From assembly GCF_000422805.1 (NCBI RefSeq), contig NZ_KE383922.1, positions 99,984 to 163,983 on the forward strand: a stretch of 64,000 nt of DNA, given 5' to 3'. The stretch is from Nocardioides halotolerans DSM 19273 (GTDB taxonomy: Bacteria > Actinomycetota > Actinomycetes > Propionibacteriales > Nocardioidaceae). The position numbers were made by a program, and so were the translations under genes. Under the pieces are notes generated by a model that did no database searches, was not told the DNA's origin, and was given only the letters and a program-made list of their open reading frames with translations. Shown here piece by piece: positions 16,194 to 40,246 of the stretch (position 1 is its first letter; each line of letters begins with the position of its first letter).

Positions 16194-16220
16194 GACCGGC
16201 CAGTAGGGTCAGATGTGACG
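16194..16220 (-). promoter_or_regulatory. ECF41-type promoter motif (redoxin)
   Basis: Minus strand: CGTCACA, 16 nt, GGTC. One base from the island consensus TGTCACA-N16-GGTC. It lies about 50 nt upstream of the redoxin start. The rest of the gap, 16221-16473, shows no gene. Confidence 0.7.
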
Positions 16221-16473
16221 CCGACGTTGGCTCGTTCCACCAGGAGCCGGACGACTTACGCCGGTTCAGGGCGTGCTCGCGACGCCCAGCAACGGCCCTG
16301 CAGAGCTACGCGTCCGGACGAGCTCTGCGGGGCCGTCCTGGGTTTGGCCGCTACTCGTACCCGTTCATGGGCCCTGCGGCCGAGGTCTGTGAGGCGTTCC
16401 CCTGATTCGACCGTTCAGCTGGGTCGTGTGTGACGAATACCCGCTTCGGGGCCCACCGGCTACAGCTCGAGAT

Positions 16474-16656
16474 CTACAGGGTGAAGCGGTACGAGACGTT
16501 CGCTGGCCGTTCCGATGTGACGGCGTGTTGACTGGCGTGCGATCGACTTCGTGGCCTCGATGTGTCTCGGTTTGCCATCACCACGAGGATGACGATCGAG
16601 CCTGCGGTCCACAGGGCCATCCCGATCATCCAGAGCGACCCAATTGTCGCGCTCAT
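16474..16656 (-). CDS. 60-aa single-pass membrane protein, coupled to NDH-2
   Basis: ATG 16656 lies 7 nt after the NDH-2 stop codon. MSATIGSLWMIGMALWTAGS then IVILVVMANRD gives one membrane helix with a short outside and a basic cytoplasmic tail (DTSRPRSRSHASQHA). Position and hydrophobicity support a real gene, possibly an NDH-2 accessory or anchor. No family recognised. Confidence 0.55.
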   Translation of the reverse strand: MSATIGSLWMIGMALWTAGSIVILVVMANRDTSRPRSRSHASQHAVTSERPANVSYRFTL

Positions 16657-16663
16657 GGCCGCG

Positions 16664-17986
16664 TCACGCGGCGCGACGGCTGGTCGCGTCATCACGGAAG
16701 GCGTCGCGTGGTCGCTGGACTGATGCCAGTGAGGCGATGTCCCTACCGAGGAAAAGAGCTCCCAGCCACCCGAGCGAGACGCGGGTCTTCCGCTCCCAGG
16801 TCGGCACCGCGAGCACGTGGTAGCCGCGGTGGATGATCCACGCAGGCAGACCTTTGATGGTGATAGGACCTGACTGGAAGATCCCGTGTCCGATGCCGAG
16901 AGTCGCGATGGTGCCGAGACTACGGTGCCGGTAGGCCTTCGGAGTACGTCCGCGAATGACCGCCGCGAGGTTCTTGGCCAAACGCTTGCCTTGGCGCACC
17001 GCGTGTTGGGCGTTGGGGATTGTGTAGGCGCCGGCCCCAGATGCAAGGTCTGGCACGGCGGCGTCGTCTCCCGCAGCCCAAGCGTGATCGATGGGTTCAT
17101 CCTCGGTCCCGACGCGTAGGTCAGGCCGGACGATGACGAGACCCCGCTCGTCGGTCGGAAGGTCGGTATGGCGAGAGACAACGGGGTTGGCCGCGATCCC
17201 GGCAGTCCACACGACCAACCCGGCGTCGATGGACACGCCGTTCGACAGTTCGACCCGACCGTCGACCACGGACGTGACGGTCGTGTTCAGGTGCACAATC
17301 GCGCCACGCGACTGCAGGTGGCGTTCCACCCACACCCTCGCGGGAGGCGTGACCTCCGGAAGGATGTGGTCACTGGCGTCGACCAGGTGGAAGGCCAGTT
17401 CATCGCGAGACAGGTCTGGGTGGTACTTGGAGAGTGCCGTGGCAAGACTGAGCAGTTCTCCGAATCCTTCGACGCCGGCGAAGCCACCCCCGATGAACAC
17501 CACGGTGAGTCGCCGTTGGCGCTCCGGCCCGCGCCGAAGGCTGACTGCCTCGTCGAACGCAGTCAGCACCGCATCGCGCACAGCCACCGCCTCCTCGATG
17601 CGCTTCAAGCCGATGGCCTTTTCCGCGATGCCGGGCACAGGGAACACGCGAGTGACTGCGCCAGCGGTCACCACGACCTCGTCGTAGGAAAGGTCCGCCA
17701 TGCTTCCATCCGGCAGCTCGACTCGGACGGTCCGAGCGGCATGGTCGATTGCCGTGGCACGCCCACTGACGATCCGGGTCCTGCGCAGGTGACGGTGGAG
17801 CGGCACGATGGCGTGCCTGGCCTCGATCGAGCCGGCCGCCACCTCGGGCAAGAAGGGCTGGTAGGTCATGTACGGCGCCGGATCGACCACAATGACTTCG
17901 GCTTCTCCTCGGCGTAGTCGCTTCTCCAGCCCCCACGCTGTGTAGAAGCCGGCGTAGCCTCCGCCGACGATCACGATCTTCCTCAT
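16664..17986 (-). CDS. Type II NADH:quinone oxidoreductase-like FAD protein
   Basis: 440 residues. N-terminal FAD-binding Rossmann motif IVIVGGGYAGFYTAWGLEKR, then EVIVVDPAPYMTYQPFLPEVAAGSIEARHAIVPLH, which is close to actinobacterial Ndh. NAD-binding motif VVFIGGGFAGVEGFGELLSLA near 165. The second FAD contact is HAWAAGDDAAVPDL, and the quinone-site region is AYTIPNAQHAVRQGKRLAKN. NDH-2 passes electrons from NADH to menaquinone without pumping. AAGGAAG precedes ATG 17986. It overlaps the upstream ltrA-like gene by 4 nt and is followed by a 60-aa membrane protein, so a three-gene operon. Confidence 0.88.
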   Translation of the reverse strand: MRKIVIVGGGYAGFYTAWGLEKRLRRGEAEVIVVDPAPYMTYQPFLPEVAAGSIEARHAIVPLHRHLRRTRIVSGRATAIDHAARTVRVELPDGSMADLSYDEVVVTAGAVTRVFPVPGIAEKAIGLKRIEEAVAVRDAVLTAFDEAVSLRRGPERQRRLTVVFIGGGFAGVEGFGELLSLATALSKYHPDLSRDELAFHLVDASDHILPEVTPPARVWVERHLQSRGAIVHLNTTVTSVVDGRVELSNGVSIDAGLVVWTAGIAANPVVSRHTDLPTDERGLVIVRPDLRVGTEDEPIDHAWAAGDDAAVPDLASGAGAYTIPNAQHAVRQGKRLAKNLAAVIRGRTPKAYRHRSLGTIATLGIGHGIFQSGPITIKGLPAWIIHRGYHVLAVPTWERKTRVSLGWLGALFLGRDIASLASVQRPRDAFRDDATSRRAA

Positions 17987-19203
17987 GCGACTTCCTTTCG
18001 TGAGTTGCGGTGTCGTGACGCGGCGACTTCATCAGAGGCCGCGGCGCCGACTGTGATCGCGGCGACTAGTGCCAGTGCGGTGAGCAGACCGGTGTGGTCT
18101 GCGACTAGGACGACAGCTGCCAAACCAGCCACGACAGCACTGGTGGTGATGCTGACGCGCGGCCTCTCTGCCTCGGCGGGCACTGTGATCAGATCGAGCA
18201 CCACGAGGAACCCCGCGACAGGAACGGCCACCGCGGCCACAGCACTCGTGACAGCCAAGTGCTGCGCGCGCCCCACACTCGCGGCCACCACTACCTCGAG
18301 TCCGGCGGCCAGCGCGCCCAGCGCTGCGAACACAAAGTAGTGCCCGTACCCCCACACGAACGACCACCCTCGGCGTGCCTCCAGCTGCGCTCCGGCGGGC
18401 GTCACGAAGTAGCGCCACCACACTGCTGCCACGATGCTCAGCGCAGCCATGGCGACTGCCGTGAGGGACAGGGCACCTGCGTCCTCGACGATGGTCGAAA
18501 CGGCTGAGGAAGCCGCAAATACCCCTTCGCCGAGGAGGATGATGGCGAACAGCGCATAGCGCTCGGCAATGTGATGAGGGTGCCAGCTGGTGGGTGCCGG
18601 ACGCTCCGCCCATGCGGGGAGCGTGAGCTCCAGGAACACGAGCACCAAGAACGTGACCGTGGTCCAGTGGTTCCCCACGGGTAGCCGGGCAACCCACAGG
18701 ACCTCGAGGGCAGTCAGCCCGCCTGCGTACCTGAGCGACGTGGCCCGTCCCGACGGGTGCTGGACCCACGCGCGGATCCACATGCTGAGCAGCGCCAACC
18801 GCATGATCAGGTAGCCCAGAGTGACCACGGCGTAGTCGCCGCTCTCGAAGGCGGGACCGATGCCAGCGGCGAGAACCAGCACGCCACCCATCTGGACGAA
18901 CGCGGCCAAGCGGTAGGTCACGTCATCGCAGTCGTAGGCCGAGGCGAACCACGTGAAGCTCATCCAGGCCCACCAGATGGCGAAGAAGACCATGAGAAAC
19001 GGCCCGATGGCGGCGGCTGAGTGACCATCGATCGTGGCATGGGCGAGGTTCCCCGACAGCTGGGCCACGGCCGCGACGAAGGTCAGGTCGAAGAACAGCT
19101 CCAGCGGGGTGACTGCACGGTGGGCTTCGTCAACCGGGCGCGCCCCCATGCGCCGTTGGCCCACTGGCTGGGCTGCCGATTCCAAGTCATTGGTAGCAGG
19201 CAA
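17983..19203 (-). CDS. Low-temperature-requirement protein A (LtrA) family membrane protein
   Basis: 406 residues, TTG start at 19203 with GAGGAG 5 nt upstream. The signature VTPLELFFDLTFVAAVAQLS is diagnostic of LtrA proteins, as are WWAWMSFTWFASAYDCDDVTYRL and HIAERYALFAIILLGEGVFAAS. About ten membrane helices. The function is poorly defined: named from a Listeria cold-growth locus and linked to envelope stress. First gene of the LtrA-NDH-2-60-aa protein operon; an ECF-type promoter motif lies at 19275-19301, about 72 nt upstream, and a second one at 19426-19452. Confidence 0.9.
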   Translation of the reverse strand: MPATNDLESAAQPVGQRRMGARPVDEAHRAVTPLELFFDLTFVAAVAQLSGNLAHATIDGHSAAAIGPFLMVFFAIWWAWMSFTWFASAYDCDDVTYRLAAFVQMGGVLVLAAGIGPAFESGDYAVVTLGYLIMRLALLSMWIRAWVQHPSGRATSLRYAGGLTALEVLWVARLPVGNHWTTVTFLVLVFLELTLPAWAERPAPTSWHPHHIAERYALFAIILLGEGVFAASSAVSTIVEDAGALSLTAVAMAALSIVAAVWWRYFVTPAGAQLEARRGWSFVWGYGHYFVFAALGALAAGLEVVVAASVGRAQHLAVTSAVAAVAVPVAGFLVVLDLITVPAEAERPRVSITTSAVVAGLAAVVLVADHTGLLTALALVAAITVGAAASDEVAASRHRNSRKEVA

Positions 19204-19274
19204 CAGGGGCTCCTCACGATCGCGTACCGTCGCCCATCCATGGCGGTCCGGCCGGCGTTGCGGTCTGCCATACA

Positions 19275-19301
19275 GACCCCGGCCGGCTCACTGCTGTGAC
19301 G
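19275..19301 (-). promoter_or_regulatory. ECF41-type promoter motif (LtrA operon, proximal)
   Basis: Minus strand: CGTCACA, 16 nt, GGTC (plus-strand GACC at 19275-19278, TGTGACG at 19295-19301). Confidence 0.68.
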
Positions 19302-19425: not shown

Positions 19426-19452
19426 GACCGAGCAGTCGAGCGAAATGTGACA
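19426..19452 (-). promoter_or_regulatory. ECF41-type promoter motif (distal, no matching gene)
   Basis: Minus strand: TGTCACA, 16 nt, GGTC, a perfect island match. The nearest downstream gene is LtrA, 220 nt away, which already has a proximal copy. It may be a second promoter or the leftover of a lost gene. Confidence 0.65.
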
Positions 19453-19471: not shown

Positions 19472-19655
19472 CTACTCGACCAGCTTCCCTACGGTCGACA
19501 CGTCCTGCATCAATACTGCGATCTCTTCAGGCACCGGAGGGATGGCCTCGTGAGTCACCCCTGCGCCAGGCGACCACATCAGATTGACCTGCAGCTCGGG
19601 GTCAAGCTCGGGATAGTCGCTGCGGTTGTGGCAACCACGGGTTTCACGCCGCACG
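19472..19655 (-). pseudogene. C-terminal fragment of a succinate dehydrogenase/aspartate oxidase-type flavoprotein
   Basis: In a frame different from the oxidoreductase it joins: RRETRGCHNRSDYPELDPEL, then QVNLMWSPGAGVTHEAIPPV and EEIAVLMQ. The E-(S/T)-R-G-x-H-x-R-x-D-(Y/H)-P-E motif is the conserved end of the SdhA/FrdA/NadB family. Everything before it is missing; the fragment starts where the neighbouring alcohol-dehydrogenase-like gene loses homology (about 19655). A deletion or recombination scar. Confidence 0.7.
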
Positions 19656-20499
19656 AGTTAAAGCCGCGCAAGCTCGCATCACGCGGGTAGAGCTGCCCGA
19701 CCGGGAGTATCGAGCGCACGGCGAGTCCGGCCATCACGACGGCTCTCGCCCGAGGCTTCAACGACGGCAGTACCAGCTCGAAACGATACTGCCCACTGGT
19801 GTCCCACCAGATGTCGATTCCGTCGGGCGCTGCCCGGCGCAGCCGGTCGCCCAAGTCCGGAGAGGCGTAGTCCAGAACGAGGTCAGCGCCATCCCGTCGA
19901 CACGACTCCGCGTCCGCAGCGGAGCAGGTCGCCACCACACGCGCCCCGTGAGAGCGAGCGATCTGCACGACTGCGCTGCCCACACCTCCGCTTGCACCTT
20001 CGACGAAGACGACGTCGTCCGGCTGGATGCCGCACTCACGCACCAGGCCGACATGGGCCGTGGCGGCGGTGTGCACCACGGCCACGGCGGTGACCGGATC
20101 GACGGGTCGTGGCAGCGGGTAGACACGTTCCGCCGGTGCGACGGCGTACTCGGAGAACGAGCCCTGCCTACCTGCATGCCCCAGGCTGTTGCACCACACC
20201 CTGTCGCCAATACGGAGGTCGACCACTCCCGTGCCGACGTCGGCGACGGTCCCCACCAGGTCCCGCCCGATCACGAAGGGAAACGGAGTGTGTTTCTCGT
20301 AGGCACCGGATCGCACGAATAGGTCAACGTGGTTCACGCCGCAGACCTCCGTGCGGATGAGCACGTCGGTTGGCCCCGGCCCGGGAGTCGGCAGCATGCC
20401 GACCTCGATGTTCTCCACACTGCCCGTCGCACGAATGAACGCAGCCCGCATCTGAGCCGGCAGACCAGTGTCAGTCGTCGTCACGCTTCGTCCGGCCAT
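19579..20499 (-). CDS. Zinc-independent MDR-type quinone oxidoreductase, C-terminally truncated
   Basis: 306 residues. N-terminal GroES-like domain with EVCGVNHVDLFVRSGAY, IGRDLVGTVADVG and GDRVWCNSLGHAGRQGSFSEYAV. The Rossmann domain has the NADPH motif VFVEGASGGVGSAVVQIARS. Homologues are about 330-340 residues. After PVGQLYPRDASLRGF, family sequence stops, and the last 24 residues are an out-of-frame reading of an SdhA-like fragment. The lost helix normally completes the nucleotide domain, so activity is doubtful. Ribosome site GGAGG before ATG 20499. Divergent from the 20657 hydrolase, each with its own ECF-type promoter motif. Confidence 0.78.
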   Translation of the reverse strand: MAGRSVTTTDTGLPAQMRAAFIRATGSVENIEVGMLPTPGPGPTDVLIRTEVCGVNHVDLFVRSGAYEKHTPFPFVIGRDLVGTVADVGTGVVDLRIGDRVWCNSLGHAGRQGSFSEYAVAPAERVYPLPRPVDPVTAVAVVHTAATAHVGLVRECGIQPDDVVFVEGASGGVGSAVVQIARSHGARVVATCSAADAESCRRDGADLVLDYASPDLGDRLRRAAPDGIDIWWDTSGQYRFELVLPSLKPRARAVVMAGLAVRSILPVGQLYPRDASLRGFNSCGVKPVVATTAATIPSLTPSCRSI

Positions 20500-20539: not shown

Positions 20540-20566
20540 GACCGACTGGCCAGCCCAACCGTGACA
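20540..20566 (-). promoter_or_regulatory. ECF41-type promoter motif (quinone oxidoreductase)
   Basis: Minus strand: TGTCACG, 16 nt, GGTC. Back to back with the plus-strand copy at 20576-20602; the two -35 elements are 9 nt apart. The -10 element is about 40 nt from the start codon. Confidence 0.75.
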
Positions 20567-20575
20567 GCGCGTGGG

Positions 20576-20602
20576 TGTCACAAGGTGACGCTCCTCCCGG
20601 TC
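20576..20602 (+). promoter_or_regulatory. ECF41-type promoter motif (epoxide-hydrolase-like gene)
   Basis: TGTCACA (20576-20582), 16 nt, GGTC (20599-20602). A perfect consensus, 55 nt before ATG 20657. Confidence 0.78.
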
Positions 20603-20656: not shown

Positions 20657-21619
20657 ATGAGCCACCCAGACCGGATGTCACCGCTCAAGGAGATCCGGAG
20701 CGGAGTCCTCGACGTGACCTACTACGAGGACGGACCCGCGGACGGGCCGGTCGTGCTGCTTCTGCATGGGTACCCGTACGACATCCACAGCTATGTCGAG
20801 GTGGCCCCGCAGCTCGCGGAGCGGGGGTTCAGGGTCATCGTCCCCTTCCTGCGTGGCCATGGCCAGACTCGGTTCCTCGACGACAAGACCAGCCGGTCCG
20901 GCCAGCAGGCCGCACTTGGCGCGGACGCGGTATCGCTCCTCGACGCGCTCGACGTGCCTCGCGCGATCATCGGCGGCTACGACTGGGGAGGTCGTGCGGC
21001 ATGCGTGGCGGCGGCGCTGTGGCCCGAAAGGGTCGTTGGGCTCGTGAGCGTCAACGGATACCTCATCCAGGACATCGCCATCGCCGAGCGGCCGATCCGG
21101 CCGGATCTGGAGGCGGGCTTCTGGTACTTCTACTACTTCCTGACTGAGCGTGGCCGGGCGGGACTACGCGCGAATCGACGCGAGATCGCGGAGGTGATCT
21201 GGCGCCGCAACTCTCCTGAGTGGCACTTCCTTCAAAGCCAGCTCGACCTGGCCTCGGAAGCCTTCATGAACCCCGACTACGTCGAGGTTGTGATCCACTC
21301 ATACCGCCACCGACTCGGGCGAGCAGATGGTGCGCTGGAGTACGCCGACATCGAGAGCCGGCTCGCGCTGCTGCCGCCGATCACTGTGCCCACGGTCACC
21401 CTGGATGGTCTCGCTGACGGCAACTTCCCGGCGACCGATGGGACGCGCGACATCGACCGTTTCGTGGGGCCGAGGAGGCACCACCAGGTCGCGCTGGCCG
21501 GACACAACTTGCCCCAAGAGGCCCCCGCCGCATTTGTCGATGCCGTTCTCGAGGTGGCGGAACTCGCAGACCAGCACTCAACCGGCGTCGGGCAAGGCGG
21601 TCCTGAGCTCGTTGCGTGA
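20657..21619 (+). CDS. Alpha/beta-hydrolase with Asp nucleophile (epoxide hydrolase / dehalogenase type)
   Basis: 320 residues from ATG 20657, with AGGAGAGGTC as ribosome site. The oxyanion motif LLLHGYPYDIHSY precedes the nucleophile elbow IIGGYDWGGRAACVAA, where Asp replaces Ser. This puts it with epoxide hydrolases and haloalkane dehalogenases rather than esterases. The cap contains EAGFWYFYYFLTERGRAG. The acid and His are likely in LDGLADGNFPATDGT and VALAGHNLPQEAP. Substrate unknown; electrophile detoxification fits the setting (inference). The 3' end overlaps the LAL regulator by 42 nt. A decayed homologue lies at 39709-40167. Confidence 0.85.
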   Translation: MSHPDRMSPLKEIRSGVLDVTYYEDGPADGPVVLLLHGYPYDIHSYVEVAPQLAERGFRVIVPFLRGHGQTRFLDDKTSRSGQQAALGADAVSLLDALDVPRAIIGGYDWGGRAACVAAALWPERVVGLVSVNGYLIQDIAIAERPIRPDLEAGFWYFYYFLTERGRAGLRANRREIAEVIWRRNSPEWHFLQSQLDLASEAFMNPDYVEVVIHSYRHRLGRADGALEYADIESRLALLPPITVPTVTLDGLADGNFPATDGTRDIDRFVGPRRHHQVALAGHNLPQEAPAAFVDAVLEVAELADQHSTGVGQGGPELVA

Positions 21620-24352
21620 CCTGATCCCGAGCTTCACGAACACCTTGCGCAGGTGCCACTCGGCGGTGTGTGCACTGATGAACAACCGCGCCCCGATCTC
21701 GCGGTTGGTGAGACCGTCGCGAGCCAGTTGGGCCACGTTCAGCTCCTGGTCTGTGAGCTCCTCGGGCCTGTCCGAACGGCGGGCGCGAAGGGTCTCGCCG
21801 GTGGCATTGAGCTCGCGTCGAGCGCGCTCGGCGAAGCCGGCCATCCCACATGCGGTCAACCCGTCATACGCCGCCCGGAGTTGATGGCGGGCATCGATTC
21901 GACGGTTCACCCGGCGCAGCATCTCGCCGTACAACAGTTGGCTGCGTGCCTTGAGCATCGGCACTCGCAGGCCGTCGAAACCTTCGACGGCCGCTCGGTA
22001 CAGGTCCTCGCCCTCGTCACCCTCTCGCAGCTGTGCCTCTGCAAGCGCCATCAACGATTGCGCCCAGCTGCTGTCTCCCGCCGGCCGTGTCACCTCGGCC
22101 AGTCGCTCCACCGCTTCCTGAGCGATCGCGTACTCACTCACGCGGGTCGCGGCTTCGACCACCTCCAGAAGGGTGCGCATCGCGTGGCCGAGCTCGTGGG
22201 AGTACGGGAGCTCCTTGCGTCCGGACTCAAGCGCTTCCCGGTAACGTCCCGCTCCGTTGTAGACCAAAGCCTCCGCCATGTTGGCAACCGTGAGCGCATA
22301 GCCTTCCCCGCGCGCCTGCCCATCCGCCCTCAGCTGCTCGGCTCGAAGCTCCACCTCCTCCACGTGTCCGCGGTAGGCAGCGACGAAGGTCCTCGCGAGC
22401 TGCGGCAGCGGGTGCCCGGTGATCGACACGATGACGTCGATGTCGTCGCAGATGGCTTCAGCGGCGTCCAGGTCACCGTTGAAGGTGCGTACAACCATCA
22501 ACAGGTTCAACGCCATGGGCAGCACGGTGAGGACGCCCCCCGCCCGGGCCAGCTGGACCTGTCGCTCGGCAAGAGTGCGGAGACCTTCGGCGTCCCACAC
22601 GTCCTGTGCCGCCCGGCCGCCGAACCACATCCAGTGCAGCTCGCGAGAATCAGCAGGCTGCTCCAGGAACGCGCGCACCGCACGGCGCACGGTGGGCAAG
22701 CCGGCTTCCAAACCTTCAGCCGAAAGCAACGCCTGACCACGCAGAATCAGGTCACTCGCGCGCTCGGACTCGTCGTCCGCCGTCGCCGCCAGGATCGCCG
22801 CGGCGACCTCGCCAACGGCGCCGGGCTCGCCCAGTCGGCCGGCATAGACAGCCGCCGACAAGGCCAACATGTAAGTGTCGCGGGCTAGTGCCTGATCGTG
22901 CGGTTCGAGAGCCTGCGCTGCTGCTAGAAGCGCCCGCGGCGCGCTACGATCGCGCCGCAACACGTATCCGACGCGGGCCCGCAGTCGACCGATCAGCGCC
23001 TCCTGGTGCGGGGTCCATGCTTCATCGCGGGCGCTTTCTATCAGCCCCAAGGCGGCGTCCGCAGCGCCCGCGTCTAGCTTGGCCTCCGCAGCGGCGATCA
23101 GCCTGGCAGCGCGGAGCTCCGGCTCGGGCGACAGCTCTGCGGCGCGCTCGAGGAAGGCGGCCGCCGCTGCGACGCCACCCCGGGTCCGAGCACGCTCGGC
23201 CGACTTTTCGAGCTCACCGGCCACCTCCTCGTCCGGACCCTGGGTCGCATTGGCCCGATGCCAGGCGCGACGGTCAGGATCACGGTCGACGTACGTCGCC
23301 TCCGCAAGAGCCGCGTGGACGGAGCGCCTGTTCTCGGCCGAGGCCGCGCGGTACACCGCGGAGCGGATGAGCGGATGTCGGAAGGTGACGCGGGCACCCA
23401 CGACGAGAGCCTCCGCCTGCTGGGCGGCGTCAAGGTGCTCGGGACCCAGACCGAGCCTCGCGCTGGCCCTCCAGAGCAGTCCGACATCGCCGGTCGGGTC
23501 CGCGGCTGCAAGCACCAGCAGTAGGCGCGTGGGCGCGGGCAGTGACTCCAGTTGCGTGAGCAGGCTCTGCTCGATACGCCGCTGTAGCGGCATGGAGCTC
23601 ACCAAGGCGAAGCCACCGGCTGTCGCTGCGGGATCCAGGGTGCGAGGCAGTTCGCGCAAGGCGAGGGGGTTTCCTCGGGACTCAGCCATGAGCTGGTCGC
23701 GCACCCGTTCGTCGAGAGCCCCCGGGAATGCCAGTCGCAGGAGTGCGCGAGCATCCTCGTCTCCGAGACCATCGAGAACGAGCTGTGGCAGATCCGCGAA
23801 GTGATCGTCCACCTGCCGCGTAGCCACAACCACGGCGACGCCTTCTGCATCCAGCCGGCGCGCCACGCTCGCGACCGCTCGGCCCGAGACGCGGTCGAGC
23901 CACTGGGCATCGTCGATGATGCAGAGCAGAGCTTCGTCGCCAGCGACATGCGTCAGCAGATTCAGCACTCCCAACCCGACGAGCAGCGGGTTCGGCGCAC
24001 CCTCATCACGGAGCCCAAACGCTGTCTCCAATGCCCCTCGCTGGGGTTCCGGAAGCGGGACCGACGCCGTCATCAAGGGCCCACACATGAGCTGCAGGCC
24101 GGCGTAGGTGAGCTCCATCTCGCTCTCGGAGGCGACCGTGCGCACCACCCGCACATTGGGCCCAGCCAGTTCGACGACCCGGTCCAGCAGGGCTGTCTTG
24201 CCGACACCCGCTTCGCCGCTGAGAACCAGCGCACCGCTGCGGCCGTCGCGAGCCCGGTTGACGAGCGTCAGAAGCCGAGCAAGCTCACGGTCGCGACCGA
24301 GCAGCGATGACGCGCCGGCGTTGGAGGAGGCAAGGGCGGCGCGCTCGATCAT
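21578..24352 (-). CDS. LAL-type LuxR regulator (large ATP-binding)
   Basis: 924 residues from ATG 24352 (MIERAALASS). AAA-like domain: LLGRDRELARLLTLVNRARD, Walker A LSGEAGVGKTALL near 44, Walker B LLCIIDDAQWLDRVSGRAV. The middle is TPR/helical repeats (EQSLLTQLESLPAPTRLLLVLAAADPTGD and more). The C-terminal LuxR HTH is LTDQELNVAQLARDGLTNRE followed by IGARLFISAHTAEWHLRKVF. MalT-like regulators respond to small inducers or proteins. Located 85 nt downstream of the ECF sigma gene on the same strand, and possibly cotranscribed; convergent with the hydrolase gene. A frameshifted, internally deleted copy lies at 39177-39700. Confidence 0.88.
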   Translation of the reverse strand: MIERAALASSNAGASSLLGRDRELARLLTLVNRARDGRSGALVLSGEAGVGKTALLDRVVELAGPNVRVVRTVASESEMELTYAGLQLMCGPLMTASVPLPEPQRGALETAFGLRDEGAPNPLLVGLGVLNLLTHVAGDEALLCIIDDAQWLDRVSGRAVASVARRLDAEGVAVVVATRQVDDHFADLPQLVLDGLGDEDARALLRLAFPGALDERVRDQLMAESRGNPLALRELPRTLDPAATAGGFALVSSMPLQRRIEQSLLTQLESLPAPTRLLLVLAAADPTGDVGLLWRASARLGLGPEHLDAAQQAEALVVGARVTFRHPLIRSAVYRAASAENRRSVHAALAEATYVDRDPDRRAWHRANATQGPDEEVAGELEKSAERARTRGGVAAAAAFLERAAELSPEPELRAARLIAAAEAKLDAGAADAALGLIESARDEAWTPHQEALIGRLRARVGYVLRRDRSAPRALLAAAQALEPHDQALARDTYMLALSAAVYAGRLGEPGAVGEVAAAILAATADDESERASDLILRGQALLSAEGLEAGLPTVRRAVRAFLEQPADSRELHWMWFGGRAAQDVWDAEGLRTLAERQVQLARAGGVLTVLPMALNLLMVVRTFNGDLDAAEAICDDIDVIVSITGHPLPQLARTFVAAYRGHVEEVELRAEQLRADGQARGEGYALTVANMAEALVYNGAGRYREALESGRKELPYSHELGHAMRTLLEVVEAATRVSEYAIAQEAVERLAEVTRPAGDSSWAQSLMALAEAQLREGDEGEDLYRAAVEGFDGLRVPMLKARSQLLYGEMLRRVNRRIDARHQLRAAYDGLTACGMAGFAERARRELNATGETLRARRSDRPEELTDQELNVAQLARDGLTNREIGARLFISAHTAEWHLRKVFVKLGIRSRNELRTALPDAG

Positions 24353-24437
24353 GAGAATCCGTGGGAGAAGTCTATCCGTTGCAGGGTAGTCCGTAGCGCT
24401 GAGCGCGGCCACTGGCACAGTTGGGTGGGGCCTCCCG

Positions 24438-25184: not shown

Positions 25185-25341
25185 CTTGACTTCCTCTCGG
25201 ACAGGGCAGTCGGATCTCGACCTGCTGTTGACGAGCCTCCTTCGCGAGCGCCGTTGATCGCGCCCCTGAAGTCCGTAGTGGGTCCGTAGTCAGTCCGTAG
25301 TCAGTCGGTGCCGGCCGCACGAAGGGTGGCCCGCTGTTGTT

Positions 25342-28685: not shown

Positions 28686-28717
28686 TCACGCCTCTACCAG
28701 CCCAGCTTGGGGACGCC

Positions 28718-31029: not shown

Positions 31030-31230
31030 ATGAGCGAGACGCATGCGCCCGGGCCCGACGTCCCGACCTTGCACGAGATCGTTGACGCCGAGGTAGGACG
31101 GGCCAGAGCCAGCCAGGACCCGTCTATGCCTCTGGACCCCGAGCTCCAGGAATACCTCCTCAGACTCCAGGGACTGCGCGAGGCAGTGGTGGCGATGGAG
31201 AAGTACGAGGAGAGCCTCGGCGACTTCTGA
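31030..31230 (+). CDS. 66-aa helical protein, paralogue of the 40259 product
   Basis: ATG 31030 with AGGAGAG at good spacing. Predicted helical: LHEIVDAEVGRARASQDP then LDPELQEYLLRLQGLREAVV. It aligns with the 56-aa product at 40259 (LHHELDAEIERLKSSADP, EPELGSYAARLRSLHDAVVV), so both are one small, otherwise unrecognised family, each behind an ECF-type motif. No membrane segment or cysteine. Confidence 0.65.
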   Translation: MSETHAPGPDVPTLHEIVDAEVGRARASQDPSMPLDPELQEYLLRLQGLREAVVAMEKYEESLGDF

Positions 31231-33004: not shown

Positions 33005-33047
33005 GATCATTCCTTCGCTGTCGTGCGAGCGTGTCCGTCGCCTGCCC

Positions 33048-33074
33048 GACCGGGGGAGCCCCGCCCGTGTGACA
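33048..33074 (-). promoter_or_regulatory. ECF41-type promoter motif (ferritin-CDGSH gene)
   Basis: Minus strand: TGTCACA, 16 nt, GGTC, perfect. Back to back with the patatin promoter motif; only 5 nt between the two -35 elements. Confidence 0.78.
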
Positions 33075-33079: not shown

Positions 33080-33106
33080 TGTCACAGTCGGCTTCCTGCG
33101 CCGGTC
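33080..33106 (+). promoter_or_regulatory. ECF41-type promoter motif (patatin)
   Basis: TGTCACA (33080-33086), 16 nt, GGTC (33103-33106), perfect; about 40 nt before the patatin start. Confidence 0.78.
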
Positions 33107-34103: not shown

Positions 34104-34654
34104 CCAGCGTCCGCTGTTGTTGCCTGACGGAGTTGGCGCTGCAGGGCCAGGGCAGACAGGACGGGGGCGAGGAACTCCGGGTCCACGTCGTCGCGTACCT
34201 CTCCTCGGGCTTGCGCGCGCCTGTAGATATCGGCGATCCGTCTGACCCTGGGCTCGATGAAAACGCTCTCGAACGCCTCGGCGAACTCGGGGTCGTGAGT
34301 GAGGGCGCTGGCGACGCTTGCGACGATCGCCAGCGACGCGCAATCGGCGGTCTCATCAGCGGACCTGTACGCCCGCAGAAGCTCGGCCCGCAGGCCGCCG
34401 GGGTCGGGCTCGAGGAGTGGAGGAGACATCGTCCGCAGTGCTCGGAGCACGAGCGCCGGCTTACCGCCGTAGTGCCGGTACAAGCTCGCCTTCGACACCC
34501 GAGCCCTGGTCGCGATGGCATCCATGGTCAGGCGGTCGTAGCTCAGTTCGATGAGCACATCGAGCGCTGCTTGGAGAATCTCCTCTTCACGAGGGCCACC
34601 AATGCGGCGTCGCGTATTGGGGGCCTCTTCTGGGCGCGGCGTCGTTGCGGTCAT
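34031..34654 (-). CDS. TetR-family regulator
   Basis: 207 residues. TetR HTH at about 22-66: EEILQAALDVLIELSYDRLTMDAIATRARVSKASLYRHYGGK. The ligand domain includes FAEAFESVFIEPRVRRIADIYRRAQARGEV. Last gene of a three-gene operon: NmrA-like, diiron protein, TetR, each overlapping the next by 4 nt. It may repress this operon or the neighbouring patatin, with which it overlaps at the 3' end. Confidence 0.87.
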   Translation of the reverse strand: MTATTPRPEEAPNTRRRIGGPREEEILQAALDVLIELSYDRLTMDAIATRARVSKASLYRHYGGKPALVLRALRTMSPPLLEPDPGGLRAELLRAYRSADETADCASLAIVASVASALTHDPEFAEAFESVFIEPRVRRIADIYRRAQARGEVRDDVDPEFLAPVLSALALQRQLRQATTADAGYLERAIDELILPAVSTGSGAANR

Positions 34655-35556
34655 GCCCGGAGCTCGACGTCGGTGCGTGCGTGCCCTGCCCTGCGCTCCG
34701 CGCTGAGCGAGATCGCCTCATCAAGCGCCCGCAACACGTAGCTGGGTACCCGCATCCCTTGCTGTTCGCTCCAGAGGAGCTCGCGTTCCACGAGACTCAG
34801 CTGTTGGGCGATGTCGACGCGGTCCTGGTCGAGTGCGAGCGCGCGGGCAACGTCCCCGAAGTCTGCGCGCTGGCGGTCGTTGTTGACGCCCACGAGGTCG
34901 AACGACCGGCGCCTCAGGACGCGGGCCAGCTGTAGCTGCCAGTCACTGAGCCCTTGCTCTCGCACCAGCGCTTCCGCAGACAGTCGGTAGAAGGCGAAGT
35001 GCCCTGGCTCTTGTCGGCGGATGGGAGCAATGACGGTGTCCGCGATGGCACGCTCGCCCATCGCTCGGAGGCCTTCGACGAGACGCGAGTACGCAACTAC
35101 TGCTGCGCGTTCGGTGGCCGCCCCGGTGAGGTGGTAGAGAAGTCGGATGACCTCTGCCACGCCCGGGAGATGCGACAACGCACCGGCCACGCGGATCTTG
35201 ACACTCACGGTGCGCAGGTCAGCCTGCGTCGACGGCATTCCGATGGCGTGCTGAACCGCATCGAGCAGGACTCCGTGCTGCAGCTCCTGCGGAGACCAAA
35301 CCTCCTCGAAGAAGAAGCGGTCGGTCTCGGAGGCCTCCGGCAGTAGCGTGCGAAGCTCCAAGACGTTCCGCTCGACCTCGAGCTCCACCCGTGACAGGTA
35401 GCCGAAGACGTCTCCGTAGCGATTCCGCAGCTGATCGGGGTCGTGAATGGTCAGGTCTGCGGCTCCGAGTGAGAGCGGTGGGTGGTCATGCCCGAGCCCC
35501 TCGGCGAACCGGCGCAGGCCCGCGGGGTCCCGGTAGATACGCCGGTCCGGGTTCAC
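34651..35556 (-). CDS. Ferritin-like diiron protein (acyl-ACP desaturase-like fold)
   Basis: 301 residues. The helices carry carboxylate/His ligand motifs in the right order: SRVELEVERNVLELR, FFFEEVWSPQELQHG (E-E-x-x-H type), GAATERAAVVAYSRLVE and RRQEPGHFAFYRLSAEAL (E-x-x-H). This matches stearoyl-ACP-desaturase/ferritin-like diiron enzymes, which oxidise acyl chains or other organics using oxygen. Reductant unknown; the CDGSH protein and flavodoxin-fold reductase nearby are candidates (inference). Middle gene of the NmrA-diiron-TetR operon (ATGA overlaps). Confidence 0.75.
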   Translation of the reverse strand: MNPDRRIYRDPAGLRRFAEGLGHDHPPLSLGAADLTIHDPDQLRNRYGDVFGYLSRVELEVERNVLELRTLLPEASETDRFFFEEVWSPQELQHGVLLDAVQHAIGMPSTQADLRTVSVKIRVAGALSHLPGVAEVIRLLYHLTGAATERAAVVAYSRLVEGLRAMGERAIADTVIAPIRRQEPGHFAFYRLSAEALVREQGLSDWQLQLARVLRRRSFDLVGVNNDRQRADFGDVARALALDQDRVDIAQQLSLVERELLWSEQQGMRVPSYVLRALDEAISLSAERRAGHARTDVELRA

Positions 35557-36308
35557 TTCGGCGGGACGTTGTTGGCCAGCCAGTCGTCGAAGCGGACCTC
35601 GCCCAGGCGCGCGTCGGCGCCGGGGGTGAGGGCCCGCTCCCCGACCTTGGCGCCGAAGTAGGGCGCCTCGGGGTCGGTGACCACGGTGCGGGGGTCCCCG
35701 TCATGCGCCAGCGTTCGTCGTGCCAGCTCGTCCAGGGGGATCGCTTCGGGCCCGCCGATCTCGATGGTGGCGTTTGCCGGCGGAGCGACGATGGCCTCGG
35801 TGAGCAGCCGCGCGACGTCGTCGGCGGCGATCGGCTGGAAGTAGGCGTTCGTGAGGCGGATGATGTCGCCCTCCGCTCCCGCCTCGGCGATGCTGCGGAC
35901 GAACTCGCAGAACTGCGTCGACCGGACGATGGTGTAGGGACGTCCGGACTCCTTGACGACGTTCTCCTGCGCGACCTTGGCGCGCAGGTAGCCGCTCTCG
36001 GGCTCTTGGTCGGCCCCCACGATGGACAGCACGACGTGGTGGCCCACGCCGCCGGCCTCCTCAGCTGCGAGCTGGTTGCCGGTCGAGGTCACAAAGAAGT
36101 GGCGAACCGCCTGTTCGTCCCATGAGGGGGAGTTGGTCACGTCCACGACGACATCGGCTCCGCGCAACGCGTCCGCGACACCCTCCCCGGTGACGGTGTT
36201 GACACCAGTGTCGGGGGATGCGGCTACTGCTTCGTGACCGCGCTCCGTGAGGTTGGCGATCACCTTGGAACCGATCATCCCGGTTCCACCCAGCACGACG
36301 ATCTTCAT
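35553..36308 (-). CDS. NmrA-like NAD(P)-binding protein (atypical SDR)
   Basis: 251 residues from ATG 36308; upstream in-frame codons would run across the promoter. Rossmann start MKIVVLGGTGMIGSKVIANL (GGTGxIG), then VVVDVTNSPSWDEQAVRHFF and HHVVLSIVGADQEPESGYLRAKVAQENVVKESGRPYTIVRST, typical of NmrA/atypical SDRs that bind NAD(P) and act as redox sensors or reductases. First gene of the operon with the diiron protein and TetR. GAGAGACC upstream; the ECF-type motif is at 36349-36375. Confidence 0.85.
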   Translation of the reverse strand: MKIVVLGGTGMIGSKVIANLTERGHEAVAASPDTGVNTVTGEGVADALRGADVVVDVTNSPSWDEQAVRHFFVTSTGNQLAAEEAGGVGHHVVLSIVGADQEPESGYLRAKVAQENVVKESGRPYTIVRSTQFCEFVRSIAEAGAEGDIIRLTNAYFQPIAADDVARLLTEAIVAPPANATIEIGGPEAIPLDELARRTLAHDGDPRTVVTDPEAPYFGAKVGERALTPGADARLGEVRFDDWLANNVPPK

Positions 36309-36348: not shown

Positions 36349-36375
36349 GACCACGCTGCTTCACTCGATGTGACA
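36349..36375 (-). promoter_or_regulatory. ECF41-type promoter motif (NmrA-diiron-TetR operon)
   Basis: Minus strand: TGTCACA, 16 nt, GGTC, perfect; about 40 nt before ATG 36308. Confidence 0.78.
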
Positions 36376-36968: not shown

Positions 36969-37382
36969 GGGGCCTGACCTTGGTTCTTGGACACGCTGAA
37001 TCCATCACCTGCTGGGGAAGCGAGATGATCCAGGAACCGTGACCAGGAAGAACTACTCCGATGAGTTCCGTCGTCAGGCCGTCGACTTGTATGAGTCCAC
37101 CCCGGGCGCCACGGTCCGCGGCATCGCCGAGGGTCTCGGCATCGTGCGCGGCACGTTGCGGCTCTGGCTCGAGGTCTACGGGACCGGCAAGAAGACCGCT
37201 GCTGAAGAGACGAGCTGGCCTGCCGACCGCAGGTCTTCAAGTGGCTCGTCCGCTACAACACTCGCCGCCGTCACACCTGGTGCGGCTACCTGTCCCCGTC
37301 CACCTACGAGGCCCGCCAGGCCGCTACCCTGCCGACCGCCGCGTAATCACACCCCGTATCCAAGATCCGGGGGTAGGGCCCC
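36969..37382 (+). mobile_element. IS3-family element, internally deleted (414 bp)
   Basis: Imperfect terminal inverted repeats: GGGGCCTGACC...TTCTTGGACACG at 36969 and, read from the other end, GGGGCCCTACC...ATCTTGGATACG ending at 37382. Inside are the start of OrfA (MTRKNYSDEFRRQAVDLYES) and, directly joined in another frame, the end of OrfB (VFKWLVRYNTRRRHTWCGYL). The DDE core is gone, so the element cannot move by itself but could be mobilised in trans. No clear target duplication. Confidence 0.75.
37039..37346 (+). pseudogene. IS3 transposase remnant (OrfA start joined to OrfB end)
   Basis: GTG 37039 begins about 53 residues of OrfA helix-turn-helix (GATVRGIAEGLGIVRGTLRL). Near 37215 the OrfA sequence ends, and in a shifted frame about 40 residues of the OrfB C-terminus follow (NTRRRHTWCGYLSPSTYEAR), ending at TAA 37344-37346. 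Everything between, including the catalytic DDE residues, is deleted. Confidence 0.78.
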
Positions 37383-37653
37383 GTTGCACGTGCGAGCGGA
37401 GGCCGCTGTGGTCTAGAAGGCGCACCTGGGAGCCTGGATTCAGGCTCGAGGCCCGAGCATTGGAAGTGCGACTGGCGCGACCGTCACCAATCGAGGACGG
37501 AGGATGGTCGTTCCCTTTCGTGAAATCGAGTCGAGAAGTGTTCGAGTAGCGAAGACGGCCCTAACCGCGCACCGGCGCTCTGGCTGTTCCTTGGACGCTG
37601 CGGTGCGGTCTCGATGGCTCTCTATCCGTAACGGGATGCCCGCCCGACTCCGC

Positions 37654-37680
37654 TGTCACATCTCGGGTGTTTGCCTGGTC
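37654..37680 (+). promoter_or_regulatory. ECF41-type promoter motif (UBP zinc finger)
   Basis: TGTCACA (37654-37660), 16 nt, GGTC (37677-37680), perfect; 50 nt before ATG 37730. The gap 37383-37653 holds no gene that I can support. Confidence 0.77.
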
Positions 37681-37729: not shown

Positions 37730-38134
37730 ATGCGATCAGATTGGATCAACCCGAATGCTGTGCCATCAGGCACGGGTTGCGCGGAGTGCCTGCTCGAGGG
37801 CACTTGGTGGTTCCAACTCCGCCGCTGCGCTGCGTGCGGTCATGTTGGCTGCTGCGATTCCTCACCCGAAAGGCACGCGACGGCCCACTTCGTCGCTACG
37901 AACCATCGAGTGATGCAATCGTTCGAGCCAGGGCAGAATTGGTTCTGGGACTACCAGACCGAAGAACAAATCGACGTGGATGCCGTCCTCGCCCCTCCGA
38001 CCTCGCGGCCGCTCACCCAGCCCGCTCCCGGTCCTCGAGGACTCGTGCCCTCGAACTGGCGAGCGCTCCTCGGTAGCGCCGGGAAGCCCTCACGTCGGCG
38101 CTGGGGCAGTCGCAAGACTCGCGTCGCTCGGTAA
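37730..38134 (+). CDS. UBP-type zinc-finger protein
   Basis: 134 residues from ATG 37730 with GGGAAGGGG upstream. A ZnF-UBP domain fills residues about 15-80: GCAECLLEGTWWFQLRRCAACGHVGCCD, HATAHFVATNHRVMQSF and NWFWDYQTEEQ. The Cys/His ladder and final W-Y are conserved. In eukaryotes this fold binds the free C-terminus of ubiquitin; bacterial stand-alone copies are common in actinobacteria, and their role is unknown. The basic Arg/Pro tail is variable. Confidence 0.85.
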   Translation: MRSDWINPNAVPSGTGCAECLLEGTWWFQLRRCAACGHVGCCDSSPERHATAHFVATNHRVMQSFEPGQNWFWDYQTEEQIDVDAVLAPPTSRPLTQPAPGPRGLVPSNWRALLGSAGKPSRRRWGSRKTRVAR

Positions 38135-38290: not shown

Positions 38291-38317
38291 TGTCACATCG
38301 ACTGTTGCGCTGCGGTC
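38291..38317 (+). promoter_or_regulatory. ECF41-type promoter motif (flavodoxin-fold reductase)
   Basis: TGTCACA (38291-38297), 16 nt, GGTC (38314-38317), perfect; 33 nt before ATG 38350. Confidence 0.78.
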
Positions 38318-38349: not shown

Positions 38350-39066
38350 ATGACGGCACTCGACCTGGACTTCACGGGCCTACGAGCCCTCTTCATCAAC
38401 TGCACGCTCACGCGCTCCCCCGACGTCAGTAACACCCAAGGCCTCGTTGACGTGTCCGCCGCGATCATGCGTAGGCACGGCGTAGAGGTGGAGGTCCTGC
38501 GCGCCGTTGACCATGACATCGCCAGCGGCGTGTACCCCGACATGAGGAAGCACGGTTGGCCCATGGACGAGTGGCCCGAGATCTATCCCCGTGTTCTTGA
38601 CAGCGACATCCTGGTGCTGGCCGGTCCGATCTGGCTCGGCGACAACTCGAGCCAGACGAAGAAGGTCATCGAGAGGCTCTATGCGCTCAGCGGGATGCTC
38701 AATGATGAGGGTCAGTACGTCTTCTACGGGAGGGTCGCCGGCTGCCTGATCACCGGCAACGAGGACGGCATCAAGCACTGCGCGCAGAACATCCTCTACT
38801 CGCTTCAGCACGTCGGCTTCCTCATTCCGCCGAACGCCGACGCCGGTTGGGTAGGAGAGGCAGGCCCCGGACCGTCGTACCTCGACCCCGGTAGCGGTGG
38901 CCCTGACAACGACTTCACGAACCGCAACACCACCTTCATGACGTGGAACCTCATGCACTTCGCCCGCCTGCTGAAGCAGACCGGGGGCGTCCCGGCATAC
39001 GGGAACCAGAAGGCAGCATGGAACGCCGGTACGCGGTTCGACTTCCAGAACCCTGAGTACCGCTAG
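38350..39066 (+). CDS. Flavodoxin-fold NAD(P)H-dependent FMN reductase
   Basis: 238 residues. FMN-reductase-type motifs: GLRALFINCTLTRSPDVSNT (phosphate loop), SDILVLAGPIWLGDNSSQTKKVIERLYAL (isoalloxazine loop) and VFYGRVAGCLITGNEDGIKHCAQNILYSLQHVGF. These proteins reduce quinones, azo dyes or FMN, or serve as electron donors. Aromatic-rich C-terminus (MTWNLMHFARLLKQTGGVPA). Monocistronic behind its own ECF-type motif. Could supply electrons to the diiron and CDGSH proteins (inference). Confidence 0.83.
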   Translation: MTALDLDFTGLRALFINCTLTRSPDVSNTQGLVDVSAAIMRRHGVEVEVLRAVDHDIASGVYPDMRKHGWPMDEWPEIYPRVLDSDILVLAGPIWLGDNSSQTKKVIERLYALSGMLNDEGQYVFYGRVAGCLITGNEDGIKHCAQNILYSLQHVGFLIPPNADAGWVGEAGPGPSYLDPGSGGPDNDFTNRNTTFMTWNLMHFARLLKQTGGVPAYGNQKAAWNAGTRFDFQNPEYR

Positions 39067-39176: not shown

Positions 39177-39700
39177 GGAGTTGCCGAGCCCTTCATGACA
39201 AGCCGCCGTAGGAGCCGTTCTCCCTCGAGGAGACGCCCGCCCTCACTGCTGCTCGGCCGCGACCAGGAACTGGCCCGCTTTCCGCGCTCGTGGACCAAGC
39301 TCGGAGATGGTCGGGGATTCGCCCTACCTGCGGCAATGCCTCTCGAGCGCCGCATCGAGCAGAGCCTCCTCATTCAGCTGGAGACCCTGCCCGAGCCGAC
39401 GCGCAACCTTCTTTTCATCGCTGCAGCAGACCCGACCGGAGACCCCGGACTCTTGTGGCGCGCCAGCACGATCCTGGGACTCAAGCCGGAAAACGCCGAC
39501 CCCGCCGTCCACGACGACGCGCTTGACGTGGGTCAGCGCGTCGAGTTCCGACACCCGCTCATCCGATCATCGGTCTACCAAAGCGGCTTCGCCCGAGGCC
39601 CGACGACAAGTCCACGCCGCCCTGGCCGAAGCGACAGTCGTCGACACGGACCGGACCGGAGAGCGTGGCGCCGGGCACAGTCAACGGTCCTTCCCGACGA
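39177..39700 (+). pseudogene. Decayed copy of the LAL-type LuxR regulator
   Basis: Starts like the intact LAL protein (LLGRDQELARF) and then jumps to its middle: PLERRIEQSLLIQLETLPEP, FIAAADPTGDPGLLWRAS, VEFRHPLIRSSVYQ. The ATPase core between them is deleted. After about 39585 the matching text (RRQVHAALAEAT, then DRRAWRRAQS) continues only by changing frame, so there are at least two frameshifts. Stops at about 39700, where it abuts a broken hydrolase. Its intact counterpart is at 21578-24352. Confidence 0.8.
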
Positions 39701-39708
39701 AGGTGTCG

Positions 39709-40167
39709 CTAGTAGAAGTACCAGTATCCGGCTTCCAGTTCGGGCTTGATGGGGTGCGCGGACGCGGCAACGTCCTGGATGAGGTACCCGTTGACGCTGA
39801 CAAGGCCGGTGACTCGGTCCGGCCATAGGGCCGCCACCACGCACGCCCCCCTGCCGCCCAAGTCGTAGCCGGCCAGGACGGCCTCGGGCAGGCCGAGCGC
39901 GTCGAGCAGACCGATCAGGTCGACGCCGAGCGCGGCCTGCTGACCCGACCGCGAGGTCGCGTTGTCACGAAACCGTGTCGGGCCGTGACCGCAGATGCGG
40001 CACCACGACCCGGTAGCCAAGCGAGGCCAGTCGTGGAGCTACGTCGACGTAGCTGTGCACGTCGTACGGGTAGCCGTGTAGCAGCACGACCGGCGGCCCA
40101 TCGGCGGGCCCTTCTGTGACGTAGCGATGTCGAGGTCGTCGGTTCGTGCGTACTGGATCGGGGCCAT
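39709..40167 (-). pseudogene. Decayed copy of the Asp-nucleophile alpha/beta-hydrolase
   Basis: ATG 40167 begins MAPIQYARTDDLDIATSQKG; a frameshift then breaks the HGYPYDVHSY region. After another shift the frame recovers as SRSGQQAALGVDLIGLLDAL, VLAGYDLGGRGACVVAALWP and LVSVNGYLIQDVA, stopping at EAGYWYFY. The intact homologue at 20657 continues FYYFLTERG for another 150 residues, so the C-terminal half is missing. Convergent with the LAL remnant, exactly as the intact pair is. Confidence 0.82.
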
Positions 40168-40182
40168 GTGGGCTTCCTTTCG

Positions 40183-40209
40183 TGTCACGCGCTGCGGCGC
40201 GCTGCGGTC
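40183..40209 (+). promoter_or_regulatory. ECF41-type promoter motif (56-aa protein / SDR operon)
   Basis: TGTCACG (40183-40189), 16 nt, GGTC (40206-40209); 50 nt before ATG 40259. Confidence 0.73.
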
Positions 40210-40218
40210 ATCAGGGGT

Positions 40219-40246
40219 GACCGGGCCGACGCAGTGATTCGTGACG
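40219..40246 (-). promoter_or_regulatory. Degenerate ECF-type motif before the hydrolase pseudogene
   Basis: Minus strand: CGTCACG, 17 nt, GGTC. The spacer is one nt longer than in all other copies, consistent with decay in step with the broken gene it faces. Confidence 0.4.

Follow-up and report, generated by a model that had tools for sequence, protein, structure and literature searches.

An island with a resident sigma factor

We analysed a stretch of 64,000 nucleotides (nt) of the Nocardioides halotolerans DSM 19273 genome (NCBI RefSeq assembly GCF_000422805.1, contig NZ_KE383922.1, positions 99,984 to 163,983 of the forward strand), hereafter the window, in which a foreign-looking island of about 27 kb carries the gene for a sigma factor of the extracytoplasmic function (ECF) type together with many copies of a promoter-like motif, TGTCACR-N16-GGTC. 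A preliminary description, made from the sequence alone, had proposed an island-wide promoter set served by a resident ECF sigma factor, and both the set and the sigma factor, which we place by descent in group ECF41, are present. What it had overlooked is that this sigma is devoid of the domain that defines ECF41, that its gene adjoins one for a regulator which we take to be of the LAL type (LuxR family with an AAA ATPase), that this regulator has a candidate operator, and that the sigma ends in Ala-Ala. The features are listed below; promoter-like sites come from a motif scan and CTACGGAC elements from a pattern scan.

14319-15497, minus strand: tyrosine recombinase of the phage-integrase type, at the left end of the island (PF00589, E 1.6e-17; phrog_1 integrase, E 1.9e-45)
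15547-16143, minus: AhpC/TSA-type redoxin (PF00578), start 50 nt past site 16194
16194-16220, minus: promoter-like site CGTCACA-N16-GGTC, one mismatch
16664-17986, minus: NDH-2-like pyridine nucleotide-disulphide oxidoreductase (PF07992), overlapping LtrA and likely in one transcription unit with it
17983-19203, minus: LtrA family membrane protein, start at 19203 or 19149 (PF06772, E 3.6e-85)
19275-19301, minus: promoter-like site CGTCACA-N16-GGTC, one mismatch, before LtrA
19426-19452, minus: promoter-like site, exact, 222 nt before LtrA (possible upstream tandem site)
19579-20499, minus: zinc-type alcohol dehydrogenase-like oxidoreductase (PF08240/PF00107)
20540-20566, minus: promoter-like site, exact (TGTCACG), 40 nt before the oxidoreductase
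20576-20602, plus: promoter-like site, exact, 54 nt before an alpha/beta hydrolase, divergent to 20540
20657-21619, plus: alpha/beta hydrolase (PF00561)
21578-24352, minus: LAL-type regulator, AAA ATPase with LuxR helix-turn-helix (HTH) domain (PF13191, PF00196), 85 nt downstream of the sigma gene
24389-24396, minus: CTACGGAC element between sigma and LAL
24438-25184, minus: resident sigma, 248 amino acids (aa), ATG at 25184, ending in SQAA (TIGR02957, PF04542, PF08281)
25271-25300, minus: candidate operator ahead of the sigma gene, with three direct repeats of CTACGGAC at 11-nt intervals
25342-25368, minus: doubtful site GGTCACG-N16-TGTC, two mismatches
25375-25401, plus: promoter-like site, exact (TGTCACG), 34 nt before the 109-aa protein
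25436-25765, plus: 109-aa protein, 55-74% identical to counterparts in related loci L009 and L039-L041, with a weak zinc-ribbon match only
25779-25805, plus: promoter-like site, exact, 80 nt before the hydrolase ATG at 25886
25886-26743, plus: alpha/beta hydrolase, Abhydrolase_6 (PF12697)
26812-26838, plus: promoter-like site, exact, 65 nt before the Abhydrolase_3 gene
26904-30157, plus: run of three genes, Abhydrolase_3 (26904-27854, PF07859), Abhydrolase_6 (27894-28628, PF12697) and QcrB-like cytochrome b (28649-30157, PF13631)
30954-30980, plus: site TGTCACA-N16-TGTC, one mismatch, 49 nt before a 66-aa open reading frame (31030-31230)
31253-33010, minus: ferritin-like protein with two CDGSH stretches and Fer4_19 (PF12902, PF09360, PF06902)
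33048-33074, minus: promoter-like site, exact, 37 nt before ferritin-CDGSH
33080-33106, plus: promoter-like site, exact, 40 nt before patatin, divergent to 33048
33147-34103, plus: patatin-like phospholipase (PF01734)
34031-34654, minus: TetR regulator, in the overlapping set 34031-36308
34651-35556, minus: 301-aa protein without a Pfam match ("diiron" in the preliminary description), same set
35553-36308, minus: NmrA-type NAD(P)-binding protein, same set
36349-36375, minus: promoter-like site, exact, 40 nt before NmrA
37654-37680, plus: promoter-like site, exact, 49 nt before the zf-UBP gene (37730-38134)
38291-38317, plus: promoter-like site, exact, 32 nt before the FMN reductase gene (38350-39066)
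40183-40209, plus: promoter-like site, exact (TGTCACG), before a short frame and a short-chain dehydrogenase/reductase (SDR) gene (40426-41358)

The NmrA, 301-aa and TetR genes overlap and are likely one transcription unit.

The promoter-like motif is concentrated in the island

All 16 sites of the preliminary description were recovered, each with its 16-nt spacer. Twelve match TGTCACR-N16-GGTC exactly and three (16194, 19275 and 30954) differ by one base, so the ten exact or one-off TGTCACA-N16-GGTC sites counted there were too few, the actual number being 15 of the 16. The last, at 25342, is unconvincing, since its two mismatches put it at chance level (58 matches with up to two mismatches were observed in the window and 54 expected). 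Three further one-mismatch sites, absent from the earlier list, lie at 16409, at 20479, overlapping the start of the gene 19579-20499, and at 25693, inside the gene 25436-25765.

Across the genome of 4,856,512 bases the exact motif occurs 15 times, with 12 copies inside 20.8 kb (19.4-40.2 kb of the window) and three elsewhere, where the outside density would give 0.013 copies in the island stretch; a reversed-pattern control matched 4 times genome-wide. An equal density inside and outside the island, which the preliminary description had named as refuting, is thus excluded. The excess is diluted when one mismatch is allowed (137 matches genome-wide versus 77 for the control). With the spacer left free (12-20) there are 38 matches genome-wide, and within the window recurrence is found at spacer 16 only.

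As to position, the statement that nearly all sites lie 30-80 nt before a start holds for 12 of the 16, with GGTC 32-80 nt from a plausible start on the same strand, and fails for four: 19426, already flagged as an exception and indeed 222 nt from LtrA, behind a second site; 19275 (71-125 nt, depending on the LtrA start); 25342 (157 nt); and 40183, which leads to a 56-codon frame, identified by eye, that overlaps the SDR start. The ECF41 consensus quoted in the preliminary description, TGTCACA-N16-CGTC, is that of Wecke et al. (spacer 16 ± 1; PMC3426412).

A sigma factor of ECF41 descent without the SnoaL domain

The best family of the resident sigma by E-value is TIGR02957/SigJ (E 4e-49), with 167 bits against a curated cut-off of 323. 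A Pfam search found sigma regions 2 and 4 (PF04542 and PF08281) and no SnoaL domain, and the best match in the PDB, SigJ 5xe7 (E 9.7e-25), aligns up to query residue 217, early in the C-terminal extension. The SnoaL-like extension of about 100 aa that ECF41 proteins carry, with its DGGGK and NPDKL motifs, is absent from the resident sigma, as is the WLPEP motif of the sigma2-sigma4 linker, and no frameshifted SnoaL remnant was seen in other frames past the sigma stop codon.

For comparison we assembled 95 different sigma sequences, 38 short and 57 full-length, from 85 loci. Rows L136 and L165 (repeats of L009 and L010) were dropped, as were L016 (3 kb) and L018 (weak), both removed manually, L015 and L017 (without a sigma match reaching 130 bits) and L108 (no sigma in the fetched stretch). 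The wide stretches were taken from the top or near the top of the match lists (20, 40, 8 of 13 and 13 of 14), so the sample leans to close relatives; it may contain further repeats, and the overlaps within one genome of L093 with L110 and of L094 with L099 cause a few sites to be counted twice in the motif totals given below.

In a first set of 69 homologues, DGxG together with a relaxed NPxK pattern, made wide enough to cover the observed variants, is found in none of 21 short and all of 48 full-length forms. WLPEP is present in 1/38 short and 57/57 full-length forms of the complete set, and the only short form that keeps it, L109, has no LAL and looks like a recent truncation. On the other hand, the short forms retain the first helix of the extension (consensus RRLVAAFLAAARTGDL), with three columns invariant in 38/38. 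As far as sequence goes, these comparisons establish that the resident sigma is of ECF41 descent and that, although its first extension helix is kept, both the inhibitory SnoaL domain and the motif on which this domain docks are gone. This helix should matter, because NPDKL is described as tying the SnoaL domain to the linker motif (PMC7730460) and because of what truncation did to ECF41 proteins: partial truncation of two of them raised activity to about 20 and about 120 times that of full length, a further truncation (192) was clearly less active, and removal of the whole extension left an inactive protein (PMC3426412).

Autoregulation of the sigma gene through the site at 25342 was considered and rejected, given the two mismatches of this site. 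A strict motif stands upstream of 0/38 short and 5/57 full-length sigma genes, and its absence before every short sigma gene speaks against autoregulation through the motif.

Host sigma factors of the full-length type

The same genome encodes four full-length ECF41-type sigmas with WLPEP, DGGG and NPDK or NPEK, three of them above the family cut-off. Since the family shares the same -35 box, these proteins might serve the island promoters in trans, the resident short sigma being weak or inert, as would suit the inactivity of ECF41 proteins without the extension and the weakness of one partial truncation (PMC3426412), and several full-length relatives elsewhere are surrounded by many GGTC sites. 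We consider this unlikely. TGTCAC-N16-CGTC lies beside two of the host sigmas and TGTCAC-N16-TGTC beside a third (in the 3 kb of sequence for the fourth we saw no TGTCAC-N16 site), and none of the eight exact CGTC sites of the genome falls in the island, versus 12 of the 15 GGTC sites. Moreover, the short lineage retains the first extension helix and conserved sigma regions, and the motif is more numerous in genomes with a resident sigma: among 215 Nocardioides genomes, the 10 with the sigma average 9.1 exact motifs and the 205 others 1.9. Given these differences in the -10 box (CGTC or TGTC beside three host sigmas, GGTC at the exact island sites), its first base may separate the island from the ECF41 circuits of the host.

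Use of the motif in related loci

Related clusters in other actinobacteria also have motif copies ahead of the orthologous genes, where the preliminary description had proposed to look for them. In the 35 loci with a short sigma, 128 copies have a spacer of 16, and the other spacers (11-15 and 17-21) yield 2-29 each, with spacer 11 highest among them, probably because TGTC precedes GGTC inside the spacer. The 50 loci with full-length sigmas only have 110 copies at spacer 16. Over all 85 loci, 206 of 235 sites lead to a start within 200 nt, at a median of 45 nt. The genes behind them are most often of NmrA type (41/85 loci), followed by a fumarate-reductase-type flavoprotein (20), Abhydrolase_6-type hydrolases (13), ferritin-CDGSH (9), the sigma group (7, nearly all in full-only loci), NDH-2 (7), carboxymuconolactone decarboxylase (6), Abhydrolase_3 (6) and cupin (6). 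NmrA and carboxymuconolactone decarboxylase proteins are COE partners of ECF41 (PMC3426412).

That the motif is instead the operator of a conventional regulator, for example the LAL or the TetR protein that the island encodes, seems to us highly improbable, since it is asymmetric, keeps a fixed 16-nt spacer at the short distance from starts given above, fits the -35 box and spacer of ECF41 promoters determined in two species (PMC3426412), and is frequent in stretches with a full-length sigma and no LAL.

Two side observations concern these loci. The 576-aa fumarate-reductase-type flavoprotein (L010 12982 and 19 other loci), second commonest behind the motif, is not among the motif genes of the window. 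Loci L162, L164, L167 and L168, from the genus of G300, which was taken as Streptomyces, each combine two ECF41-like sigmas of full length with 7-11 copies of the motif over 16-20 kb, L162 having 11.

The LAL regulator and its candidate operator

A LAL homologue (more than 500 aa aligned) is found in the fetched stretch of 33/38 short versus 2/57 full-length sigmas, and in both of the latter cases the stretch also holds a short sigma. In the 300-nt regions upstream of the 37 other short sigmas, the pattern C[CT]ACG[GC]A[CT] matches 68 times, in 34 of the 37 regions, where letter-shuffled controls give a mean of 3.65 and a maximum of 11; upstream of the 57 full-length sigmas there is a single match (shuffled mean 5.54). 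Direct pairs at a spacing of 10-13 or 21-24 nt occur in 16/37 short versus 0/57 full-length upstream regions. The density of the pattern is 6.4 per kb upstream of short sigmas versus 0.24 per kb in the rest of the loci, a ratio of 26, and of the spaced pairs of neighbouring matches in short-sigma loci, 20 out of 20 lie at a sigma start. Taken together, this makes it somewhat probable that LAL acts on the CYACGSAY repeats before the sigma gene. Upstream of the LAL genes themselves the pattern occurs in 6 of 49 rows, one of them (L138) from a faulty coordinate, so LAL autoregulation is not supported as a rule.

As a separate observation, the stretch 39336-40020 holds a decayed inverted copy of the hydrolase-LAL pair, with 244 nt that are 71% alike to the LAL gene and 281 nt that are 73% alike to the hydrolase 20657-21619. 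Several relatives have two LAL genes flanking the sigma, so a second LAL has possibly decayed in the window.

The Ala-Ala end

The resident sigma ends in SQAA. In its clade of 24 sigmas, 15 end in Ala-Ala and 20 in Ala, and the corresponding numbers are 3/57 and 11/57 for the full-length forms; among the other 14 short forms one ends in Ala-Ala, and of the called genes of the window, 4/57 do. A precedent is the sigma factor AntA, an orphan ECF sigma of a gene cluster, with an Ala-Ala end through which it is degraded by ClpXP and with a LuxR regulator above it (PMC7142297). The likeness would be convergence, because the promoters of AntA are different (PMC3933326). We propose, tentatively, that the Ala-Ala end of the resident sigma could act as a degron.

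Weighing the evidence

We give a probability of roughly 0.7 to the reading in which the resident sigma drives the island promoters, free of SnoaL control. A number of observations weigh against it or against the regulatory scheme built around it. Some genomes without the sigma are rich in exact motifs (14 copies in G051, 7 in G052, 7 in G577 and 6 in G576), G051 and G052 carrying full-length homologues. GGTC is the commonest box in the full-only stretches too (82/110 sites), so it marks a wider subgroup and not the loss of SnoaL, and several of these stretches hold 6-11 motif copies; clusters with many sites occur without SnoaL loss, so that short forms are set apart neither by such clusters nor by GGTC. 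Since a further truncation was clearly less active and a protein without the whole extension inactive (PMC3426412), the short form need not be highly active. Furthermore, 5/38 short sigmas have no LAL in the fetched stretch, 3/37 (L014, L109 and L166, of which L014 has a LAL) have no operator element, and 9/24 members of the clade end otherwise than in Ala-Ala. Part of these upstream regions had been viewed before the operator pattern was picked, and a fairer judgement of it therefore comes from comparison with the full-length genes and with the remainder of the loci. The inducing stress, too, is a guess from gene content, in which redoxin, ferritin-CDGSH, FMN reductase, NDH-2, cytochrome b and lipases suggest redox or lipid-peroxide stress.

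Descent limits the argument in a similar way. The short state requires three changes on one tree and two on the other. Most short forms thus belong to a single lineage, and their LAL linkage, operator and tail, which for the most part go back to common ancestry, do not count as independent replicates. Support for the clade of 24 in the larger tree is weak (SH-aLRT 76, or 94 without L014), and an independent-pairs comparison of SnoaL loss with LAL linkage found only 2 pairs and was powerless. With so few independent events, and with L109 as a recent-looking truncation that kept WLPEP and has no LAL, the short sigma could simply be a degraded ECF41, its links to LAL, operator and Ala-Ala reflecting lineage history and having no regulatory meaning. 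This we regard as improbable: 37 of the 38 short forms have lost WLPEP as well as the domain, the short reading frame is preserved in several genera, and the operator element is enriched at the sigma promoter. That these traits are conserved while the sequences diverge to about 40-60% identity argues for their use.

Boundaries and distribution of the island

In 2-kb bins the G+C content is 0.64-0.69 between 14 and 44 kb of the window versus 0.71-0.76 outside. A search of 341 genomes of the family at E<=1e-48 recovered the sigma in 12, that of the window included. To the right, the conserved flank opens with the gene 41512-42930, presumably glnA; a gene of this type is present in 118/118 genomes searched, and among the genomes compared synteny is kept to its right and broken to its left. 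The stretch thus combines an integrase, a deviating G+C content, patchy occurrence and a break in synteny. Comparison of the glnA neighbourhood with related genomes revealed no att repeat or clean empty site, and ARAGORN found no tRNA in the window.

A second genome (G639) has a related, rearranged cluster (L182-L183) at a distance of about 16 kb from glnA, and L185 has a redoxin homologue near glnA; the glnA side may be an insertion hot spot. Within the island there is also a fragment of a transposase HTH (PF01527) at 37039-37416. The gene order of the run 26904-30157 is repeated in L039 and L040. Its lone QcrB-like cytochrome b (28649-30157), in a run with hydrolases, scores 478.6 bits, slightly under the NCBIfam cut-off of 500, and in the related clusters L043 and L046 the QcrB-like gene is near NDH-2 and NmrA.

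A possible scheme of regulation

We hypothesise that the island is a mobile redox and lipid gene set that would form a single regulon under its own sigma. With the fused brake lost, control would have shifted to synthesis and perhaps to degradation of the sigma. The adjoining LAL would bind the CYACGSAY direct repeats and turn on the sigma gene, and the sigma would then guide RNA polymerase to TGTCACR-N16-GGTC at 15 sites, serving about 14 units: redoxin, LtrA/NDH-2, the oxidoreductase, the 109-aa protein, the hydrolases, the 66-aa open reading frame, ferritin-CDGSH, patatin, the NmrA unit, zf-UBP, FMN reductase and SDR. Once LAL is silent, ClpXP may clear the sigma through its Ala-Ala C terminus. 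For the scheme as a whole, in which the lineage swapped its built-in control (the SnoaL brake and its docking site) for LAL on CYACGSAY repeats and an Ala-Ala degron, and in which the sigma, freed from one-gene duty, became the resident master switch of mobile redox islands with insulated promoters (GGTC versus the host's CGTC), we see the chances as about even.

Through the natural SnoaL-less forms, with their numerous promoter-like sites and candidate operator, one can test directly how a fused regulatory domain is replaced. Moreover, GGTC against CGTC offers a test bed for promoter insulation on mobile DNA, and for the gene set of the island the inducing stress could be found through a single promoter. 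The literature searched, as far as its excerpts go, holds no account of SnoaL-less ECF41 forms with LAL regulators or island-wide regulons; dedicated work on ECF classification, on ECF41/ECF42 and on SigJ structure, outside the scope of that search, could mention such forms.

Comparison with known systems

The closest known relatives are the ECF41 sigmas (Ecf41Bli, Ecf41Rsp and M. tuberculosis SigJ), which the resident sigma resembles in its nearest profile family (TIGR02957, SigJ 5xe7), in the -35 box TGTCACA with a 16-nt spacer, and in the NmrA-type (COE) gene behind island site 36349. It is unlike them in having no SnoaL_2 extension, WLPEP, DGGGK or NPDKL, in the -10 box GGTC instead of CGTC, and in the LAL regulator that adjoins it. 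Not every ECF41 need be limited to one COE gene, since a study in Azospirillum, going by its title in a reference list, reportedly places motility and lateral flagella under an ECF41 sigma. ECF41 is widely distributed, and in the three species studied (B. licheniformis, R. sphaeroides and S. meliloti) it was found to control a single gene or operon, with the fused domain governing activity (PMC3426412, PMC6180224), whereas the island has 12 exact and 3 near-exact sites before about 14 units. In S. coelicolor, a truncated form of the sigma SCO2742, which may or may not belong to ECF41, had 7 targets in vitro versus 1 for the full-length protein, with activity only about 1.5-fold higher (PMC9205884).

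The sigma factor AntA (ECF282) of the antimycin cluster of Streptomyces albus is similar in that an ECF sigma sits inside the cluster it serves, ends in Ala-Ala and has a LuxR-family regulator in its cascade. However, it belongs to another sigma subfamily, its promoters have CTC in the -10 box and spacers of 17-18 nt (GGTC and 16 in the island), it has two target operons, and the gene for FscRI, the LuxR regulator above it, lies in a different cluster (PMC3933326, PMC7142297). Finally, the protein encoded at 21578-24352 shares the AAA_16 and GerE domains of LAL regulators, and it differs from them in being tied to a sigma gene with a repeat element of its own, to which it would putatively bind.

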